From Methanosphaera sp. BMS (GTDB lineage Archaea; Methanobacteriota; Methanobacteria; Methanobacteriales; Methanobacteriaceae): a stretch of 64,000 nucleotides of DNA. The DNA is taken from contig NZ_CP014213.1 in NCBI RefSeq assembly GCF_003268005.1, positions 1,550,001 to 1,614,000 of the forward strand. The letters are read 5' to 3'. Below are positions 23,035 to 61,103 of the stretch, piece after piece (the stretch's first letter is position 1; each line of letters starts with the position of its first letter). The notes beneath the pieces were generated by a model that saw only the letters and a program-made list of their open reading frames with translations, did not search any database and was not told the DNA's origin. The position numbers were made by a program, and so were the translations under genes.

Positions 23035-24693
23035 TTATAAAGCTGGGTTGATTAAGTCACGTTCACCGCTAGGCATAAATTCTCTGATTGCACCTTTTGC
23101 GATACATTCTCTTGGGTTAGCCCAATCGAATAATAAGTTTTTGTCAGCAAATGCAACTTTTATGAGAGGGTTGAGTGTGAAAGCGTCTCCTCTAGCTGCG
23201 TGTGGTGCTTGAGCAATACCTGCGTATTCAGGTTGGTGACCTACGTTCATTGCGTAGTTAGGGTAGTTAGGACCTCTTAATTCGTGGATGAGACCTTCGT
23301 CACTTCTGATAGCGAGTGAGTTGGATGAACCACATTGATCTTGTAAGTCGTAACCGTAGAATCCTAATCTGCTGTGACCTTCTTTGTGTAATAATTGACT
23401 TAAGTACCATCCGTTTACACCAGCGTTTGAGTTACCGGTAGCGAATGCTACTGAACAACCTGCACCTGCTGCAGCTACACATGCTCTTTGTGATCCACCG
23501 AAGTGGTCTTCGAGTGCTGCTGGGGTTTCGTATTGTTCTAATGCGTATAAAGTTACTTCACTTGCAATGTCTTTTACTACATCAACGGAAGCATCAGCTT
23601 GACATAATCCACCATAGTTTGTTTCTACGTAATCTTTACCGTAGTATATGAAGTCATCTAAGATTTCGTCGGTGTATGCTGCGGTAGCATATTGTGTGAA
23701 TCCTACACCACCAGACATGTATGAACCTAACCATACTTGGTCGTATAATGGTGATGCTGCACCGATTACTTCTAATGTTACTTTAGCAGGGTCGTCAGAT
23801 GTTCTGCTGGTTTGTACCATATCTGAGAATGCACCGAAGGTTACACCTCCAGGTTCGTTAGGACCTCTTGCTCTTCTTGATGGCATTGCACTAGCCATAG
23901 ATACTACGTCTGCGTGTTTTGCAGCGTATGAGAAGTCAGCAATAGCAGCTTCTCCTGCACATAATTTGTATGCAGAAATGAAACTCATACCGATTTGCAT
24001 AGCAGACCATCTTGAGGTTGTACCACCGTCACAAGCACGTACTACTAAAGTAGGTACTCTTGATACTTGGTATGTTTTTTTACCTATGTATTTTTTGAGC
24101 ATTTCAGCTTGTTCTTCAGGGAATTCTTTGTTGATGTCGATTACGAATCTCTGATCTAATTGGTCGAGTAAGTCATCGTCACCAGTAAAGATTTTTGCGT
24201 ATGAATCTACAACGAGTCCAGGGTCTACTTCAACCATGTGTTCTTGTACAACTGCTCCTCCAGGGAGTGCGTGGTTGATTGTTTCGAGGTATTCGTTGAT
24301 TGTTTCAGGAGTTACTTCTACACCAAGTCTTTGTTCGAGTACTCCGTGAGCTGTGTCCATACCTACAATTACAGTTCTTTTAATATCGTCAACTAATTGT
24401 TGGATAGCAGAGTTGTTACAGAAGTGAAGGTCGTCTCCTTCTACGTATGTGTCTGTTCCAGATACTTGGTAAGCCATTAATTTTCTTTGTCCAAGAGGTA
24501 CCCCAATATCTGGGTTGTAGAATGGTAATCCTCCACGAGCTTCCATAGCTTTTTCTGCTTGTTCATTAAATTCTCTTTTTCTTGCGGATTGTTCCCATCC
24601 ACCGTAGCAGTAATATTTAGTGTTTTGTTCTTCAGGGTCTTCGTCAAATTTTTCTTGTAAAGCCTTTAAGAATAATTTTTTCTCATTATCCAT
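23035..24693 (-). CDS. mcrA: Methyl-coenzyme M reductase, alpha subunit (mrt type by operon order)
   Basis: 552 residues, the catalytic alpha subunit that binds F430 and releases methane from methyl-CoM and CoB. Visible key residues: the axial Gln near 150 (GGAVVQEH), His260 (site of N-methyl-His), Arg274 in [12 protein letters not shown] (site of methyl-Arg), Gln402 (methyl-Gln), Gly447 in [11 protein letters not shown] (thioglycine) and Cys454 (methyl-Cys in some species). All sites are intact; whether each is modified cannot be seen. It overlaps the stop of mcrG by one base (TAATG), so translation is coupled. Operon order B-D-G-A without C matches the MCR II (mrt) isoenzyme. Confidence 0.97.
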
Positions 24694-25490
24694 TATTTAC
24701 CACCTAATTTACTTTGTAAATCTTTGTTGAATACTTCTAATCCGTATCCACCGTCAGTTCTTGCGAAGTGGATTTCTTCAACTACTTTGATAACTTCTGG
24801 GTCGTCTCTTAAACTTATGTTGTCACTTCTGTAAATAGTTGTGATTTCTTTAAGTTTATCTTCTGGTAAAGGTTCTCCTACTGATATAGGTTCGTCAAGT
24901 TCTACACCTACTTGGTCTTTTACGTATTTAACTACTCCTTCATCTTCGTCAAATACATATCTTTGTAATGCGTCGAACATTAAACCGTTTTCATCAAGTC
25001 TTAATGAGTGACCGTGTACGGTTGCTCCTCTTAAACCTGTTTTTGCTGGATCAAAGAATTCTGATTCAATTAATAATTTTGAGGTTTCTTCGAGGTCTGA
25101 TTCTCTCATTTCTACTACTTGTCTTCCTGAGAGTGTACCGGTATCTACTCCTCTGAATCTTCTCATGTATGATCTTGCTCTGTCGTATGGTTGAGCTGGT
25201 GCGTTATACATGGAGTCTGCGAATTGTACGTATCTTATACGAATTCCTTTTTTAGCTCCGTCGATAGGTTCAACGAAGTCTTTCATATCATCTGCTTCAA
25301 AGTCCATTTCATCTAGAGGTGGGTGTACTGTTTTGTAACCTTCCCCTGGGTTTCTGTGACTTAAAAGTTTTACTATGTCATCATCTGCTATACTTCTTAG
25401 TATTTCGAGTTCATAATCTGGGTTTAAGTGTTTTTTACGGTTTTCCGCAATCTTACTTTCCCCAGGATAAAATTGTACGTCATATGCCAT
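24693..25490 (-). CDS. mcrG: Methyl-coenzyme M reductase, gamma subunit (mrt type by operon order)
   Basis: 265 residues, the gamma subunit of the MCR hexamer. Typical features are the N-terminal [18 protein letters not shown] near 43-53, and the F430-contacting [14 protein letters not shown] segment near 155-168. The length fits the family. It starts 6 bases after the stop of mcrD, and its stop overlaps the start of mcrA. There is no mcrC between mcrD and mcrG, unlike the classical mcrBDCGA operon. Confidence 0.97.
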
Positions 25491-25496
25491 TTACAA

Positions 25497-26003
25497 TCAC
25501 CTGATATATTTAACAGTTTCTGATGATTTTGCATTTGGATCAACTAATCCGATAAGTCTAGAATCGATTTTATCCTCAAAACCTTTTCCGTATTTCATGT
25601 AATCTGATACGGATGTTTGTGTTTTGGTGAAAACACCGACTTTCAAATCATATCCGAAACTTAGTGTGTTTTCTAAAATTTCATCTACCTTTTCTACAAA
25701 ATCTTCAAGATTGTCTAATTGGACAGTCAATATTATTTCACCAACAGATACCCTTAGCGGTACGTCATTACCTTTGACATTGATTGTCTTTCTGTCAGTA
25801 TGATTAACCGGCAATCCTCTGGCAGGACCGAAGTTAACTACCGTAGGCAATGATTCCCCATTAATTAAAACTCTCAAAACTCCATCTAAAACCATGACTT
25901 CATTCAAAATACTTTCCGCCGTTTCTGGTTTCAATATCCGATATGGAAATATCTTTACATCGGTTGCTTTAATTATATTTGATTCGTCTATATCTGTTGA
26001 CAT
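25497..26003 (-). CDS. mcrD: Methyl-coenzyme M reductase operon protein D
   Basis: 168 residues, McrD family. It is not part of the purified hexamer; it is thought to help assembly or F430 loading of MCR. Features include the N-terminal DVKIFPYRILKPETAE and the central GPARGLPVNHTDRK. AAAGGATG precedes the ATG. It sits between mcrB and mcrG with short gaps (17 and 6 bases). Confidence 0.93.
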   Translation of the reverse strand: MSTDIDESNIIKATDVKIFPYRILKPETAESILNEVMVLDGVLRVLINGESLPTVVNFGPARGLPVNHTDRKTINVKGNDVPLRVSVGEIILTVQLDNLEDFVEKVDEILENTLSFGYDLKVGVFTKTQTSVSDYMKYGKGFEDKIDSRLIGLVDPNAKSSETVKYIR

Positions 26004-26020
26004 AACATAACATCCTTTAA

Positions 26021-27349
26021 TTAGATTTTATCTTTTATTTGACTAGCTCCTTCAGCAACATATTTTACTGGTTCTCTTAAGTTATCTACATTACCATATA
26101 CTTCTCCAACTAATCCTGATGTAGCTTCTACAGAGAACATCTGTGTACCTGCATCTAAGGACATAGCTGCTGCGTTACATGGAATTGCGTAACCTTTACT
26201 GTGTCTTGTTACTACGTGGTTACCGTTGAATACACCAGGTCCTCCTCCACCGTATATACCGTGTGAGAAGAAACTCATACCTACACCTGTACCCATTACT
26301 CTACCAAAGTCTACACCAGGTAATCCTGCTTCGTATTCTAAGATATCGTTAAAGTATAAAATGGATGATGCAATACCTTGTGCTGCTCTTGCTGCACCTA
26401 CGTTTACAATAACAGATGCTACGAGACCTGCTGCTGCATATGCATTCCATAATGCCCAGTCAGCTGGTTCATATAATTTGTATCCGGATGGTAATGTTTC
26501 TTTTACTTTGATTACTCCATCGTCTTCTGCTCTTGCTAATAATGAAATAACAACGTCACCAAGGGTTCCTTTACCGTTTTCTTTTACTAAGTCGTAAACT
26601 AAGTTGTTTGCGTTTAATCCTTGGAATGCTAAACCTAAAAGGTGGCTTCTTTCGAATGCACCGATTGCGTCACCCATTTCGAAGGTAGCTGTTTGTTCTA
26701 ATATAGAGGATAAAGCTACTGCGTTGAGTGTGTTTTTCTTAGTAATTGCTACTACGTGGTTTGCTCCGATGTTTCTTAAACTGTAACCTAAACCTTCAAG
26801 GTGAGTGGTTTGACCTAATAAGGTTGTTAATGCTCCACCTAATTTAACGTTGTGTGGGTATCCACCCATAGCTGCGGTTTTTATTTCTACAGCTTGGAAT
26901 TTGTCAATGTCGAAAGTGTCTAATATAGCTTGGATTAATGCTGAACCTGTTGCGAGTGGTGCAACTGAGTAGTCACCAGCAATATCTAATCTTTCAGATG
27001 GTAATTGAACTAATAATTGTTTACCGCCGTTTAAGACTTCAACGTTGAGATCATCGTCATCGTTTACTTTTAACATTCTTCCAATTCTGCAAGCAATAGC
27101 ATCAGCATTGTCAACAATGTCTAATTCTAATTCTCTTCCTGGAATAAAGTTAGCTTTTCCACCGTAAGCTCCGTTTGCTAATGATTTTTCAATACCTGCA
27201 AGGTTTACAGCAACTGAACGCTTAATTTCTTGTATAATACTTTTTATTGTAGGGTTTACTACTGGACTAATTGCTTCTAGAGGTACTTGTTCTTCTAAAA
27301 GTTTTCCATCTACCCCATATAGATCTATTTTGTCTTCATATGTTGGCAT
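26021..27349 (-). CDS. mcrB: Methyl-coenzyme M reductase, beta subunit (mrt type by operon order)
   Basis: 442 residues, beta subunit and first gene of the operon. The CoB/F430-site region with [20 protein letters not shown] (about residues 360-380) and HSKGYAIPC is intact. The N-terminal YEDKIDLYG is typical. GAGGTG lies about 10 bases ahead of the ATG at 27349. The operon promoter should lie in the 650-base divergent region upstream. Confidence 0.97.
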
Positions 27350-28003
27350 TTATATGTACACCTCTTAAATAGTAAATTCATTAAGAAATGAATTATCATA
27401 TTCATTCCGGTCTATATGTCCACTTGAAAATCAATTATTAAAAAATATAGTTATAACTTCAACAACACTTAGTTGGTAAAAATGTTTATTGAATAAGTAT
27501 ATCCTTTATATCAATGATACTGCAATAATTAATTTAAAATACAAATAGACATACTCCCTCCAACTCTTATCTAAAAATACATTTCTATGTGTTCAAATAT
27601 TTATACAAAGAAAAAACTCCTAAGAACAAATGATTAACGATACAAAAATCACAACCCCTATATCATCATGATTAAAGTATCATATACATCAATCAACCTT
27701 AGGATGTAATTTACAACCGTTATTAGTACGTTTCTTATTTCATAGAGTAATACAAATAAACATCAATTTGAATACCTATGTTTGTGATAAATATTCTTAC
27801 AATTGAAATATTTAAAAAAGAAAACATATAAATGTTTTTATATTTTTAATTTATATATAAATGGGATATTTAGTATAAGATAGTTTAATATGATAAAATA
27901 GTCAACATAAAAAATTCATTAATTATTATACAAAGTGAAAAAATAGTTTACAAGTAATAAAGGATTATTTAATCAAAATTCTTTAAAAGAGTGGAGAAAA
28001 AAA
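27350..28003. other. Divergent regulatory region between mcrB and the radical-SAM-like gene
   Basis: No gene seen in 654 bases. It must hold the promoter of the MCR operon (minus strand; TATA-like TTATAACTATATTTTT near 27440) and that of the gene at 28004 (TATA-like TTTATATATAAATG near 27850). A perfect inverted repeat is at 27821-27838 (AAAACAT and ATGTTTT around ATAA). The length is unusual for such a gap and leaves room for regulators or a long leader. Confidence 0.5.
27821..27838. promoter_or_regulatory. Inverted repeat in the MCR divergent region
   Basis: 7-bp arms AAAACAT and ATGTTTT separated by four bases, directly upstream of the TATA-like stretch for the gene at 28004. Could be an operator; no homolog of the site was matched to a known regulator. 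Confidence 0.3.
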
Positions 28004-28903
28004 ATGATTGAAAAAATAGTTAAAAATCTGGAAAATGCGCGATTGTTTTTTGAAGACATGAAAATTTTATTATTCACTGATGATGATTGTATTAATATTT
28101 TATACAAGAAAGCTGCCGATATCAACATAAAAGAGCATGATGCGATAAAATTGGAAACGAAGATTTTTTACCCGCTTGTTTATAGTGTTCAGAGCAATTG
28201 TCCAACTTGTGGTTACCAGACTCCGGAAAGCCGCAGGGAGTATAATCCGGCATACATGGAAAGTGTGATTAAATACAATATAGATGTAATTAAATCATAT
28301 GATATTAAAAGAATTAACTGTTTACATATAGAGAACAATAAGAATTATGAAAGAGAGTTATTTTTGAAAATATTGAATAAATATGATATAGACAAAGCCA
28401 TCAAAATTGATGACATTAAAGAATTGGACATTATTGAAAAATATGATTTTGCCTCATTGATTATGGATTCCAAAAACCTCGAACTGTTCAAGTACCTTAA
28501 GGACAACAAGTCCATACAAAAAAGTTACCATATCACGGCAAACGTAGAAATCTATAACAACAATCTTGAAGAAAATATAGAATTCATCAATAATCTAAGA
28601 GAATATGATGTGGATGCAGTTGAGATAGTTGGTTATGATCCGTTTTATGACGATGTTCACGAGTACAATCCACAGTATAACAAAGAATACGTCAAGAGGG
28701 TAATTTCCACTTTGAGAATAATGTATCCTGAGTTGGAATTGAAAATATCCTATGCTACAAACGGATGCAACTATTTTGATGAAATTATACCGTTGGGAAT
28801 TAATTCAATAAATGGAATATACTGCAATAGGACAAACAAGTTGTTTAACATGGAAAAGATAATGGACATATTACAAAAAATACCTCAAAACCAGGAAAAG
28901 TAA
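28004..28903 (+). CDS. BioB/HmdB-like radical SAM fold protein with incomplete cluster motif
   Basis: 299 residues. The layout resembles biotin-synthase/HmdB-type radical SAM barrels: an N-terminal helical lead (DDDCINILYKKAADI), then a loop SVQSNCPTCGY where the cluster should bind, then REY and alternating strand/helix pattern with EIVGYDPF and EYVKRVISTLRIMYPELELKISYA. The canonical CX3CX2C would need Cys at 62, 66 and 69; residue 62 is Val, so only two cysteines remain. It may hold a cluster with another ligand or be a non-enzymatic relative. GTGGAG precedes the ATG. It is divergent from the MCR operon and ends in a strong terminator hairpin. Function unknown. Confidence 0.5.
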   Translation: MIEKIVKNLENARLFFEDMKILLFTDDDCINILYKKAADINIKEHDAIKLETKIFYPLVYSVQSNCPTCGYQTPESRREYNPAYMESVIKYNIDVIKSYDIKRINCLHIENNKNYERELFLKILNKYDIDKAIKIDDIKELDIIEKYDFASLIMDSKNLELFKYLKDNKSIQKSYHITANVEIYNNNLEENIEFINNLREYDVDAVEIVGYDPFYDDVHEYNPQYNKEYVKRVISTLRIMYPELELKISYATNGCNYFDEIIPLGINSINGIYCNRTNKLFNMEKIMDILQKIPQNQEK

Positions 28904-29589: not shown

Positions 29590-31023
29590 TTATATTTTTT
29601 TAACTAAGTTACCCATGTGGTCGTATACTTCAACAGTAGATAATCTCATTTGAGTATCTAATTGGTGAGTTGCACATGATAAACATGGGTCGTATGCACG
29701 AATAACCATTTCCATTAGGTTGAATATTTTGTCGTCTACTTCTACACCAGGTTTGATGTAAGTTTTTGCAACTTGTTGAATACCCATTTCCATGGAAGGG
29801 TTGTTTTGTACAGTAGCTACGATGATGTTAGCTTTTGTTACTAAACCGTTTTCATCGGTTTCGTAGTGGTGAGTTAAAGTACCTCTTGATGCTTCAACTA
29901 TACCTACACCGCTACCGGTGATAACTTCACGGTCTAAAGCTTCTGGACGTTTTTGACCACTTAAGTCACCTTCAAGTCCATCTACTGCTAATTCAGCAGA
30001 TGCAACAAGTTCTATGAGTCTTGCTGGGTGGAATAATAAAGGTGCTTGAGGACATCTTCCGAAAGTGTCTCTGAATGCTTCTAATAATTCTTGAGCTTGA
30101 GGAGCAGCATCAGGCATTTTTGTACATGCGTTGATTCTTGATAGAGGTGCTACTCTGTAGATACCTTCAGGATATCCGATGTCTTTGATGTAAGGGAATT
30201 TTAACCAGGAGTATGGTTTTACACCTTCAGCCATGTAGTCGGTGTAGTCTTGTGGTGCAAATTCAGCATAGGTTTTTGCTTCTTTGTCTACCATTCTTAC
30301 GTTACCGTTGTACATGTCCCAACTACCATCGTTTTTGTCTACTAAACCACAGTGGTATGTTTCTACATAACCTAATTCTGCGATTAAGTCTAAGTTTTCT
30401 TCAAAGATAGGTTGAGCTGCTTCCCATGTATCCATGGATAACTCGAGTCCTCTTTGTGCTTTTACTAAGTTTTCTTTTTGTTCTTCATCACTTAATACAG
30501 TGGTAATTCCACCAGGGGTGTTTGATACTTGGTGAATTGGTCTTCCACCGATAGCTGTTACGATATCTTGTGATAAGTGTCTTAGTTCTAAAGCTTTTTT
30601 AGCTAATTCTGGGTGAGTTTTGATGATTTGGAATACATTTCTTGTTTTTCTGTCTGCTCCACCGATAAAGTCAGGTGCACTTAAGAAGTAGAAACTTAAA
30701 GTGTGTGAGTGCATTACAGATCCCCAGTTCATGATTTCTCTCATTTTGTATGCTGCTGGGTAAATGTTATCATCTTCAAATCCGAATACTTGGTCACATG
30801 CTTTAGCTGCAGCTAAGTGGTGCTGTACGTCACAAATACCACAGATTCTTGGTACGATTCTTGGTACTTCTTCGATTGGTCTTCCTTGTAAGAATTTTTC
30901 AAATCCTCTGAATTCCATTACATGTAATTTAGTATCTTTTACGTTTCCTTCTTCATCAAGGTCTACTGTAATTTTAGCGTGACCTTCAATCCTTGTTACA
31001 GGTTCTAAAGTTAATTCTACCAT
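29590..31023 (-). CDS. mvhA: F420-non-reducing hydrogenase, large subunit
   Basis: 477-residue [NiFe] hydrogenase large subunit. Ni-Fe ligands are Cys61 and Cys64 in [11 protein letters not shown] and Cys447 and Cys450 in [17 protein letters not shown] near residue 11 is typical. In methanogens MvhADG feeds electrons from H2 through MvhD to HdrABC, the electron-bifurcating heterodisulfide reductase. It is the third gene of mvhDGA, 24 bases after mvhG. The polyferredoxin gene mvhB that follows in many relatives is missing at this locus. Confidence 0.95.
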
Positions 31024-31047
31024 ATAAGTTATCCTCCTATAAATAAT

Positions 31048-31965
31048 CTAGTTTCTTAATTTGAGTGGAATTAAAGCTGCTGGTAATGTGTAAGTGTAGA
31101 ATGTTCCTACTACATCTTCAACTTGGTTTGCAACTTCTTCTGGATCAATTTCTTTATCGTTTTCTACTCCGTAGTCTGATGCGATAGCACTGATCATTTT
31201 AGCTCCTGCATCTAATACTTTGTCTGTAGGTCCGTAACATCCTCTACATGGGGTGTCTACTGATGGACATTGTGCACCACATAATGGACGGGTAGCAGGA
31301 CCTAAACAAATAACTCCTTGAGGTACTAAACACATGTCTCTGTCGGTTTCTCCAACTTCCCATGGTCTTTTGATTTTGTCCATTGCCATACCCATAGGTG
31401 GTTTTTCTCTTTCACATACGTCACAGAGGTTGTTATCAGGTATTTCTGGGGTTTCTCCATCCAATAATGCAAGTAATACTTGTGCGATTACTTCTGATTT
31501 AGGTGGACATCCAGGTAAAGCTGCGTCTACTTTAATTACATCTGATAATGGTCTTACTCTGCTTTCTAAGTGAGGTACGCTTTCACTAGGTATGATTCCA
31601 TCCGGGTTAACTGTTGATACTGAGTTGATGTATGCTTCAGTTGTTAATTCATCGTTGGTGTGTAAGTTACCGAGTCCTGGAACTCCTCCGAATTCAGCAC
31701 AACTTCCGTATGCGATTACAAAACCAGCTTTTTCTCTTAATACTTCAGCTAATTCTTTGTTTTCATCGTTACGGATTCCACCTTCAATTAATAAAATGTC
31801 CATTTCTGGAATTTCATCATATTTTGTATCCATAAGTACTGGACTGAATTGGAATTCTACAGCTTCTAATACATCTAATAATAATTCGTGTAAATCTGTT
31901 AAAGCGATGTGACAACCAGAACATCCTCCGAGCCACATTGTTCCTATTTTAACTTTTTCTGCCAT
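31048..31965 (-). CDS. mvhG: F420-non-reducing hydrogenase, small subunit
   Basis: 305-residue [NiFe] hydrogenase small subunit. Cysteine motifs for the Fe-S clusters are visible: WLGGCSGCH near residue 13-20, YGSCAEFGG near 92, PGCPPKSE near 153, and CLGPATRPLCGAQC with TPCRGCYGP (about 220-245). It carries electrons from the Ni-Fe centre to MvhD. It starts 4 bases after the mvhD stop. There is no Tat signal, as expected for a cytoplasmic hydrogenase. Confidence 0.95.
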   Translation of the reverse strand: MAEKVKIGTMWLGGCSGCHIALTDLHELLLDVLEAVEFQFSPVLMDTKYDEIPEMDILLIEGGIRNDENKELAEVLREKAGFVIAYGSCAEFGGVPGLGNLHTNDELTTEAYINSVSTVNPDGIIPSESVPHLESRVRPLSDVIKVDAALPGCPPKSEVIAQVLLALLDGETPEIPDNNLCDVCEREKPPMGMAMDKIKRPWEVGETDRDMCLVPQGVICLGPATRPLCGAQCPSVDTPCRGCYGPTDKVLDAGAKMISAIASDYGVENDKEIDPEEVANQVEDVVGTFYTYTLPAALIPLKLRN

Positions 31966-31969
31966 GTAC

Positions 31970-32398
31970 TTATTCCCCCTCTGCTAATTGTTCTTTGAGT
32001 GGTGATGGACCTAACTCTTGAATTTCTGCAGTTACTCTTCTAATTGTTGAAGCGAATTTTTCTCCTTCGGAAGCTGAAATCCAGTCGTGCTGTACTCTCT
32101 GTTTTTCAATTCCAAGTTCGTCTAATAATCTGTATACTAATCTCATTCTTCTGTCAAATTTGTAGTTACCTGCATCGTAGTGACAGTCACCCATGTGACA
32201 TCCACCGATGAATACTCCGTCTGCTCCTTCTCTTAAAGCTTTTAATATGAATTGAGGTTCAATTCTTCCAGAGCACATTACTCTGATCATTCTTATGTTA
32301 GGTGGGTATTGCATCCTTGATGTTCCAGCAGTATCTGCTCCACCATAGCAGCACCAGTTACAACTGAAAACGATTATTTTAATATCGTCGTTAGCCAT
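31970..32398 (-). CDS. mvhD: F420-non-reducing hydrogenase, delta subunit
   Basis: 142 residues, MvhD family [2Fe-2S] protein. Conserved cysteines lie in [12 protein letters not shown] (about 11-20), VMCSGR and GCHMGDCHY. MvhD links the hydrogenase to HdrA. It is the first gene of the operon, with GGAGG eight bases before the ATG. The region upstream is dense in palindromes, described separately. Confidence 0.95.
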
Positions 32399-48807: not shown

Positions 48808-48933
48808 GAAATACCTCCGAATATTAATTTATAAAAACAATTATATTAACCATCATTATATATATTTTATTCCAAACAAGGATATGATAAAAATAATTTT
48901 CTGATTATATTTACATGGTTGAAGAATTCTCCC

Positions 48934-49493
48934 ATTATAACAACAATTATAACAACAATTATAACAACAATTATAACAACAATTATAACAACAATTATAA
49001 CAACAATTATAACAACAATTATAACAACAATTATAACAACAATTATAACAACAATTATAACAACAATTATAACAACAATTATAACAACAATTATAACAAC
49101 AATTATAACAACAATTATAACAACAATTATAACAACAATTATAACAACAATTATAACAACAATTATAACAACAATTATAACAACAATTATAACAACAATT
49201 ATAACAACAATTATAAGAATAATTATAACAACAATTATAACAACAATTATAACAACAATTATAACAACAATTATAAGAATAATTATAAGAATAATTATAA
49301 CAACAATTATAACAACAATTATAACAACAATTATAACAACAATTATAACAACAATTATAACAACAATTATAACAACAATTATAACAACAATTATAACAAC
49401 AATTATAACAACAATTATAACAACAATTATAACAACAATTATAACAACAATTATAAGAATAATTATAAGAATAATTATAAGAAATGTTGTGAT
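48934..49493. repeat. Tandem array of a 12-bp unit, about 46 copies
   Basis: About 560 bases of the unit ATAACAACAATT, almost without change. A variant unit ATAAGAATAATT is found at 49213, at 49273-49296 (two copies) and at 49453-49476 (two copies). Two plus-strand frames are open: one reads (NNNY)n from an ATG at 48915 to 49550 and the other (ITTI)n. Neither start has a ribosome-binding site, and the differences between units alter the peptide in both frames, so I do not call it a gene. The near identity suggests recent expansion by slippage. Confidence 0.85.
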
Positions 49494-49686
49494 TTAAATC
49501 AGCAAATATATAATAATGGAAAATTAAGATTAAAACAAAAAAAGCAATAGTGGAAGCAATATGTCAAAACATGACTACTTCCATAGTGTTAATGAGTCAT
49601 AACACATCGTATTTTTAGACAATAATTATTTTATGGAACAATTTACGCATACATCATACCAATATATTCATATGCAAAAACAAATT

Positions 49687-59861: not shown

Positions 59862-61103
59862 ATGCAAATTATGGCTGATGTCGGAGGCATACCCGGTAAG
59901 AATTGTAGGGGTTTCTGCAAGTACTGCTACTTTAAAACAGTTACACAAACAAAGGTGCTGGGTTGTAAACACTGCCCTCCAGGACAAATTGGATGTAGTC
60001 ACTGCACTACAGAAACGAACATGACAAGGGATTATTTCCCGGCATATCAGGTATTGAGTTCCCTTCAAACTAACATATTCCAGACAAAACTGCCGAAAGA
60101 TACCATGGTAAACATTACAGGTGACGGTGATGTCAGTTGTTATCCCGAGCTACTGGATCTTACCCGTGGAATATATGATATGGGCTTAACAACACATCTG
60201 GGATATACGAGTGGAAAAGGAATTGATGATGCGTCAATTGTTGATAAGCTGATAAACAACAATGTGGTTGAAACGACATTCACCACCTTCTCGACAAATC
60301 CAGAATTAAGGCGTGAATGGATGTATGATCCTACACCGGAAGCGTCAATCGAAGCACTTGAAAGGTTTTGCCAGTCATGTGATGTGCATGCGGCTTCCAT
60401 CATAATACCGGGCGTAAATGATGGGGAAGAACTTGCACGTACATGTGAGGATCTTGAAAGCTGGGGAGCCAAGGCATTGATTCTCATGAGATTTGCAAAC
60501 TCCAGAAATCAGGGATTGATTCTAAGTGACCGGCCAATAGTTCCGGGAATAGTAGAACAGGACGTGCATGAATTTGAACAGCTTGTAAAGGACACCGCGA
60601 AGGAATATAACCTGAAAGTCACCGGTACACCACTGTGTGATCCTGATAATGACAGCCCATATGCAATAGCAAAAAGCAAAAACAGGGAGTATCTTGACAT
60701 CCTGACAAGCGTGAAGGCCGAGGCAACAATCATTACCAGTAAAATATCCGCTCCTTATATCGAGAAGGTATTTGACAGCATAGGTGCGTCAGAACACGTG
60801 AATGTTATTCCAACCCAACAGGAAATAGCATGTCTTATAACGGCAGAGGATTTGGAAGAAATCGACTTGAATGAAGTGAAGGATACTGTAATCATACCCG
60901 GCCGATGCTTCGTACATGACATGGTAGCAGAGGAAATACTTAGAAGAGACGGAAAGTTCAGATTAATTCATAGGGGACCCGACATGCTCACATATGATGG
61001 TGAGATGAGCGGATCAATGACTAAAAATGACGTGCTTAAACATGAACTGATATCATTTGAGGATTTGATAGAATTAATCAACTATATGGGCGTAAGAATA
61101 TAG
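59862..61103 (+). CDS. mmp10: Mmp10, MCR arginine C-methyltransferase (B12-dependent radical SAM)
   Basis: 413 residues, methanogenesis marker protein 10. The radical SAM site is CRGFCKYC (Cys15, 19, 22), followed by a second cysteine group CKHC...CSHC (35, 38, 45, 48). It methylates the C5 of one MCR alpha arginine (Arg274 here) using SAM and cobalamin. The enzyme, its target operon and CobY for the cobamide are all in this window. The start MQIMADVGG fits the family, but no ribosome-binding site is seen before the ATG, so the mRNA may be leaderless or nearly so. Taw2 follows after about 30 bases. Confidence 0.93.
   Translation: MQIMADVGGIPGKNCRGFCKYCYFKTVTQTKVLGCKHCPPGQIGCSHCTTETNMTRDYFPAYQVLSSLQTNIFQTKLPKDTMVNITGDGDVSCYPELLDLTRGIYDMGLTTHLGYTSGKGIDDASIVDKLINNNVVETTFTTFSTNPELRREWMYDPTPEASIEALERFCQSCDVHAASIIIPGVNDGEELARTCEDLESWGAKALILMRFANSRNQGLILSDRPIVPGIVEQDVHEFEQLVKDTAKEYNLKVTGTPLCDPDNDSPYAIAKSKNREYLDILTSVKAEATIITSKISAPYIEKVFDSIGASEHVNVIPTQQEIACLITAEDLEEIDLNEVKDTVIIPGRCFVHDMVAEEILRRDGKFRLIHRGPDMLTYDGEMSGSMTKNDVLKHELISFEDLIELINYMGVRI

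Follow-up and report, generated by a model that had tools for sequence, protein, structure and literature searches.

Radical-SAM proteins are usually recognized by three cysteines. The window analyzed here (the whole stretch of 64,000 nucleotides, taken from a single-contig Methanosphaera genome of 2.87 Mb) encodes an HmdB-like protein in which the first of these cysteines is missing, and its gene lies directly beside mrtB of the MCR II operon. What does this protein, here called X, descend from, what has become of its cluster, and does it serve MCR II? Methanosphaera species are rumen and gut methanogens that live on H2 and methanol only, and their energy depends on MCR II. The place beside mrtB makes X a candidate for an unrecognized accessory of the methane-forming MCR II. 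As a family that is conserved and under selection although Tyr has replaced one cysteine, X is also a natural test of the barrel without its cluster.

The first-pass annotation had described an ORF at 28004-28903 with Val at residue 62 and with C66-P-T-C69 present, and all of this was found as stated. The features of the locus are collected in Table 1. We assume the names mrtBDGA, mvhDGA and hcg from resemblance or gene order, save where a search names the gene.

Table 1. Features of X and its surroundings, in window coordinates
Feature	Position	Strand	Basis and remarks
ORF of X	28004..28903	+	ATG start, 299 aa
Probable ribosome-binding site GTGGAG	27991..27996	+	Sequence; GGAG/GGTGA-like strings precede the start in other species
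Divergent intergenic region X/mrtB	27350..28003	.	654 bases; conserved blocks also kept without X or with X elsewhere, assigned to mrt
mrtB, at the head of the MCR II operon (mrtBDGA, 23035-27349)	26021..27349	-	ORF; name by sequence resemblance
mvhA, convergent neighbor of X (mvhDGA, 29590-32398)	29590..31023	-	ORF; name by resemblance; mvhA is the neighbor in 12/14 mrtB-linked loci
Former cluster-binding loop, residues 51-80	28154..28243	+	E51, P57, Y60, N65-C66-P67-T68-C69-G70, S76, Y80 conserved; model confidence low at 56-72
Tyr60 codon, where CX5CX2C of HmdB has its first Cys	28181..28183	+	Alignment: X Tyr 12/13, HmdB Cys 13/13
CPTCG, residues 66-70, two retained cluster cysteines	28199..28213	+	Alignment; rubredoxin/zinc-knuckle-like sequence
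Cys106 codon, end of strand 2	28319..28321	+	Cys in 13/13 X and 13/13 HmdB; not in the genus' BioB-like/CofG-like rows
DPFxDxxxEYxPQY loop, residues 212-225, X signature after strand 6	28637..28678	+	Alignments

Fold and nearest family

Family models recognize X poorly. The Pfam search with the window protein gave nothing of note, and among the 14 members of the X alignment two matched Radical_SAM (best E 0.042). In NCBIfam the window protein matched HmdB (TIGR03957) with E 1.2e-7 and 31.3 bits, far below the cut-off of 320.9, and the BioB model with 18.6 bits (cut-off 225). The copy in G014 (L003) likewise stays below the cut-offs, with 40.9 bits for TIGR03957, 28.6 for PylB (cut-off 348.2) and 19 for HydE (cut-off 254.6). 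Over the 14 members (alignment A2), 13 were matched by HmdB, 11 by BioB and 10 by PylB. Of the two models against which the first-pass annotation had proposed to check the protein, TIGR03957 was thus matched below its cut-off, and Radical_SAM gave no match for the window protein.

In profile-profile comparison, X matches the HmdB proteins of other Methanobacteriales with E 1e-19 over 287 columns, the PRK06267 family with 2.1e-6 and the BioB-like proteins of Methanosphaera itself with 3.7e-5. HmdB is both its best sequence family and its best full-length profile-profile match. The AF2 model (pTM 0.81, mean pLDDT 77) is an eight-stranded HydE/BioB-like barrel, with the least confident parts at residues 56-72 (the CPTC loop) and 213-224. 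In a Foldseek search of the PDB with this model, HydE was the best match (E 8e-10), followed by BioB and PylB. Structural alignment with HydE 7o1p gave Z 20.5 over 267 residues at 15% identity. The sequence profile of X found PylB 3t7v as its best solved relative (E 1.1e-6) and also HydE, and a search of solved structures with the window protein alone returned chance barrel matches only. Among the VIA-align and Foldseek matches listed for X there is no HmdB structure. The TIGR03957 matches, the structural matches to HydE and BioB, and the profile-profile result together bear out the BioB/HmdB-like fold proposed earlier.

X shares this fold with HydE (maturase), PylB (methylornithine synthase) and the biotin synthases (BioB) of V. 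parvula and B. obeum at Z 19-20.5, but it differs from them in its low structural identity (12-15%), the lack of CX3CX2C, and scores far below the family cut-offs. In a tree of X and HmdB, the two fall on opposite sides of one branch, with supports of 100/99 and 99/96. Support for the sister relation falls to 56/27 when BioB-like and CofG-like rows are included, so that the exact root of X is not fixed, though HmdB is nearest. On sequence grounds, the nearest family of X is therefore HmdB (HcgA), with a sister placement that is firm only without the BioB-like and CofG-like rows.

The lost cluster ligand

According to PMC10100467, HcgA is a radical-SAM enzyme whose product, made with cleavage of SAM, is the pyridinol precursor of the FeGP cofactor, and the cluster motif of HmdB/HcgA is CX5CX2C. 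The same motif was seen in 18/18 HmdB rows inspected (9 and 9 more, out of 28 distinct HmdB-like places fetched). The first-pass annotation had used CX3CX2C as its frame and taken Val62 as the lost position; this reference motif was dropped once HmdB had been aligned. Alignment A6 comprises 28 rows (13 X, 13 HmdB, 2 PRK06267). At position 60, Cys stands in 13/13 HmdB and 2/2 PRK06267 rows, whereas X has Tyr in 12/13 and Leu in the relocated copy of G001. Position 62 is Val or Ile in 13/13 HmdB rows as well, and Val62 is hence uninformative about the cluster. What has changed, from Cys to Tyr, is residue 60, the first position of CX5CX2C.

The loss is shared throughout. In all 14 mrtB-linked copies, the partial one of G006 and the interrupted one of G018 included, the pattern is Y-x-[VI]-x-x-N-C-P-[TS]-C-G, with Val or Ile at 62 and Cys neither there nor at 60. 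An alignment of homologs near mrt had been suggested to see whether the Val is conserved; within the genus, the loss of the first cluster cysteine is conserved beside mrtB. The full set of three cluster cysteines is present in 0/14 of these copies, and the search for homologs with an intact CX3CX2C at the same place, which would have spoken against the earlier reading, also ended at 0/14. In the full-length copies (G018 left out), C66 is kept in 12/13, and C69 and C106 in 13/13.

Since the first cluster cysteine is missing in all 14 mrtB-side homologs, its absence is not a sequencing error. An error or a recent pseudogene in the window genome is ruled out by this agreement, and error in sequencing or assembly in general, in favor of which nothing was found, is so improbable as to be negligible, given that the same residue pattern recurs in 14 genomes, two of which (G000 and G014) are single-contig assemblies.

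The SAM pocket and the residues fixed in X

The comparison of 13 X with 13 HmdB rows covered 265 columns, a column being called fixed when at least 12/13 rows agree. Twelve columns are fixed alike, namely those of C66, C69, C106, S76, Y80 and 7 more. In 93 columns the residue is fixed in HmdB while X varies, in 12 each family has its own fixed residue, and 14 have a fixed residue in X alone. Among the 93 are the stretches SGxxG (107-114), NLET (155-158) and GES (185-187), which we take to belong to the SAM site by analogy with BioB/HydE. A conserved SAM-binding motif was accordingly not found in X. Residues 125-204 (the region of strands 3-5, picked post hoc) hold 1 of 42 conserved positions (at least 12/13 rows), with 11 expected.

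The residues fixed in X are E51, P57, Y60, N65-CPTCG, S76, Y80, N105-C106, DPFxD (212-216), EYxPQY (220-225), K247, Y250, N253 and Y273. They lie on strands 1, 2, 6, 7 and 8 and their loops, and by this pattern of conservation the barrel seems to have been rebuilt on its cluster side instead of eroded. Lacking both the full triad of cluster cysteines and a SAM site that is conserved, X is not expected to generate radicals, and it is very probably not a conventional radical-SAM enzyme. The first-pass annotation had offered a cofactor or modification protein whose cluster is changed, or a structural relative that binds SAM or an intermediate. Because the SAM-pocket residues fixed in HmdB are now variable, a structural relative is the best fit of those offered. 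X is best filed as a genus-restricted branch related to HmdB that has lost a cluster ligand and is, by the defining features of those two groups, neither HmdB nor radical SAM.

Distribution and linkage to mrtB

X was found in 15/20 Methanosphaera genomes (175-435 bits) and mrtB in 17/20. X adjoins mrtB in 14/17 mrtB-bearing genomes, and 14/15 X copies lie directly beside mrtB. The other neighbor is mvhA in 12/14 of the mrtB-linked loci; in G009 it is another ORF, and in G006 the contig ends inside X. Three genomes (G002, G012 and G019) have neither mrtB nor X. One of them is rated 97% complete, and the mrt-mvh region is probably missing from these assemblies.

In G016 and G017 only weak matches to other barrels were obtained. 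The G017 contig ends 668 bases before mrtB, and this genome counts neither for nor against the linkage. G016, the most divergent congener, has no X, and an alpha/beta-hydrolase-like ORF (L119:7695-8465) fills its mvhA-mrtB slot. G001 carries the only copy away from mrt, in which C66 and the CPTC motif are gone; its neighbors are presumably, by resemblance, a MATE-type exporter and a TetR-like gene. A tblastn search for traces of X between mvhA and mrtB in G001, in the gap of G016 and the upstream side of mrtB in G017 gave only short, scattered matches (best E 0.079).

Outside the genus, X was found neither among 150 genomes of the order, where the next best match (100.9 bits) is an HmdB, nor among 151 genomes of the phylum, which are largely the same. 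A pattern scan of genome contigs recovered 8 relatives among 16 stretches, all of them from Methanosphaera; it would miss copies like that of G001, since the pattern demands NCP[TS]CG. The open-access literature searched holds no account of X, of a pseudo-radical-SAM relative of HmdB, or of a gene between mvhA and mrtB.

The [Fe]-hydrogenase context of HmdB was not found in the genus either. In two other genera whose loci were read, HmdB adjoins hmd and hcg-like genes. Hmd was found in 0/20 Methanosphaera genomes with a model that matches in controls, HcgC in 0/20 with a query that finds 5/5 HmdB-bearing controls, and HcgG in 0/20 with a query run without a separate control. The HcgC and HcgG labels of these queries are our assignment from gene order. 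X thus resembles HmdB in sequence and in its shared fixed columns, but differs in having Tyr60 for the first Cys, in its score (31 bits vs 320.9), in its variable SAM-pocket positions and in standing outside an hmd/hcg cluster in a genus where Hmd is absent.

The divergent region upstream of mrtB

The gap to mrtB, put at about 650 bases in the first-pass annotation, agrees with the measured length. It had further been suggested that this region places X under common control with MCR, which is not borne out. Four conserved blocks were found (about 27344-27424, 27458-27492, 27552-27623 and 27742-27852), and conservation is lacking over the 150 bases closest to X. In G001, where X lies elsewhere, the blocks match 57-100% of the consensus letters, and in G016, which has no X, they are mostly matched (48-100%). 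The blocks belong to mrt, not X. As they are kept where X is absent or elsewhere, the divergent layout is no evidence for shared control, and a shared X/mrt promoter is not supported. No Rfam match was obtained in 27300-28100.

One conserved block lies at a distance of 400-500 bases from mrtB, and about 250 bases upstream of the mrtB start there is a TATA-like TATAAATA. A long leader of mrt and a remote control element, kept across the genus, are therefore possible.

Selection and dispensability

Among 91 codon-aligned pairs of X, the 14 most similar have omega (dN/dS) values of 0.08-0.38, which are rough because dS is 0.2-2.1 and in part near saturation. The 13 full-length copies keep open frames of about 300-316 codons, and Shine-Dalgarno-like strings are kept ahead of the starts. 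Judged from these codon comparisons, X is under purifying selection, and in most species it is very likely functional and not decaying. It evolves fast nonetheless: the mean pairwise identity is 39% for the 13 X rows vs 67% for the 13 HmdB rows, while mrtB of the genus is 80-93% identical to the mrtB of the window.

The copy in G018 (L013:1489-2424) carries one in-frame TAA and C106F, and its 92%-identical relative in G007 is intact; the interruption is a recent loss or a MAG error. With the absence in G016, the relocation and motif decay in G001 and the stop codon in G018, X is useful yet dispensable.

What X may do

In the preferred reading, X would descend from the HmdB (HcgA) branch of the BioB/HydE/PylB fold, be specific to Methanosphaera, and have given up radical-SAM chemistry, with the barrel put to other use. 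Once [Fe]-hydrogenase had gone from the genus, the barrel would have kept a pocket on the side of strands 1, 2, 6, 7 and 8. In the predicted model, its putative residues are E51, Y60, C66, C69, Y80, N105, C106, D212, D216, E220, Y221, Y225, K247, Y250, N253 and Y273. A metal or a small ligand is probably bound in this pocket by the CPTCG loop, to which C106 may contribute. Finally, X may act as an accessory (a maturation helper or a sensor) of the MCR II/Mvh system, on which all such cells depend; this is the weakest step. Reuse for another job is probable. The place beside mrtB suggests work for MCR II, a role that seems quite possible at somewhat less than even chances; the whole chain, from a non-radical HmdB-branch descendant with a CPTCG pocket to an accessory of MCR II/Mvh, is put forward just as tentatively.

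A more specific proposal concerns the loop. CPTCG resembles rubredoxin and zinc knuckles, which makes a mononuclear metal at C66, C69 and perhaps C106 or an acidic residue plausible; zinc-finger matches in the NCBIfam and Pfam searches were weak only. It is conceivable, and on balance improbable, that the CX5CX2C loop has been rebuilt as a CP[TS]CG knuckle, of rubredoxin or zinc type, that joins C106 and acidic residues of the barrel in a mononuclear metal site or a sensor maturing or tuning MCR II. If so, X would bring new metal chemistry, without radicals, to the HmdB branch.

Other explanations start from the same observations. X might adjoin mrtB for historical reasons alone and be a conserved ligand-binding barrel unrelated to MCR II. 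The G001 copy, which sits elsewhere near the presumed exporter and TetR-like genes, would fit this, as would the hydrolase-like ORF in the slot of G016 and the assignment of the promoter-like blocks to mrt. However, 14/15 copies have stayed directly beside mrtB despite their fast divergence, and the sole copy off mrt has lost C66 and CPTC, a single case. A purely historical linkage is thus considered rather unlikely. A radical-SAM enzyme with an altered cluster is a different matter: a [4Fe-4S] cluster could sit on C66 and C69 with Tyr60, C106 or a partner protein as third ligand. It is hard to reconcile with the variable SAM-pocket positions, the strand 3-5 region with its 1 of 42 conserved sites, and the Radical_SAM results (2/14 members, best E 0.042), which leave it improbable even though the fold is intact, C66, C69 and C106 are nearly invariant, and Tyr60 is conserved exactly where the ligand was lost. 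Clusters outside CX3CX2C do exist, HcgA itself being an example (PMC10100467).

A decaying hcgA remnant, left behind after the loss of Hmd and the hcg genes, would explain the fast divergence of X, the absence of Hmd, HcgC and HcgG in 20/20 genomes, and the defects in G018 (stop codon), G001 (motif loss) and G016 (absence). Decay would not be expected to leave 13 full-length copies whose frames stay open over about 300-316 codons, with omega of 0.08-0.38, retained Shine-Dalgarno-like strings, and 26 residues that are fixed in X and differ from, or are unfixed in, HmdB. A remnant is accordingly very improbable.

Other radical-SAM proteins of the genome

The PRK06267-type protein is a distant barrel relative of X, matched over the C-terminal half and sharing E51, but it keeps three cysteines (CEKGDCKFC) and forms a separate family. 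A member of this family with CX4CX2C spacing lies on the chromosome that carries X, outside the window and about 61 kb away (L061:5442-6452); another was seen at L050:1294-2304.

Mmp10 (TIGR03278), the MCR arginine methyltransferase, is a radical-SAM protein tied to MCR whose CRGFCKYC (CX3CX2C) is intact. It is encoded in the window at 59862-61103 (637 bits vs TIGR03278), where it adjoins the mtr operon. As Mmp10 belongs to another subfamily, X is not the Mmp10 of this genome. Elsewhere in the window, an ORF at 48915-49550 consists almost entirely of a (YNNN)n repeat that is open in two frames, and is probably a low-complexity tract.
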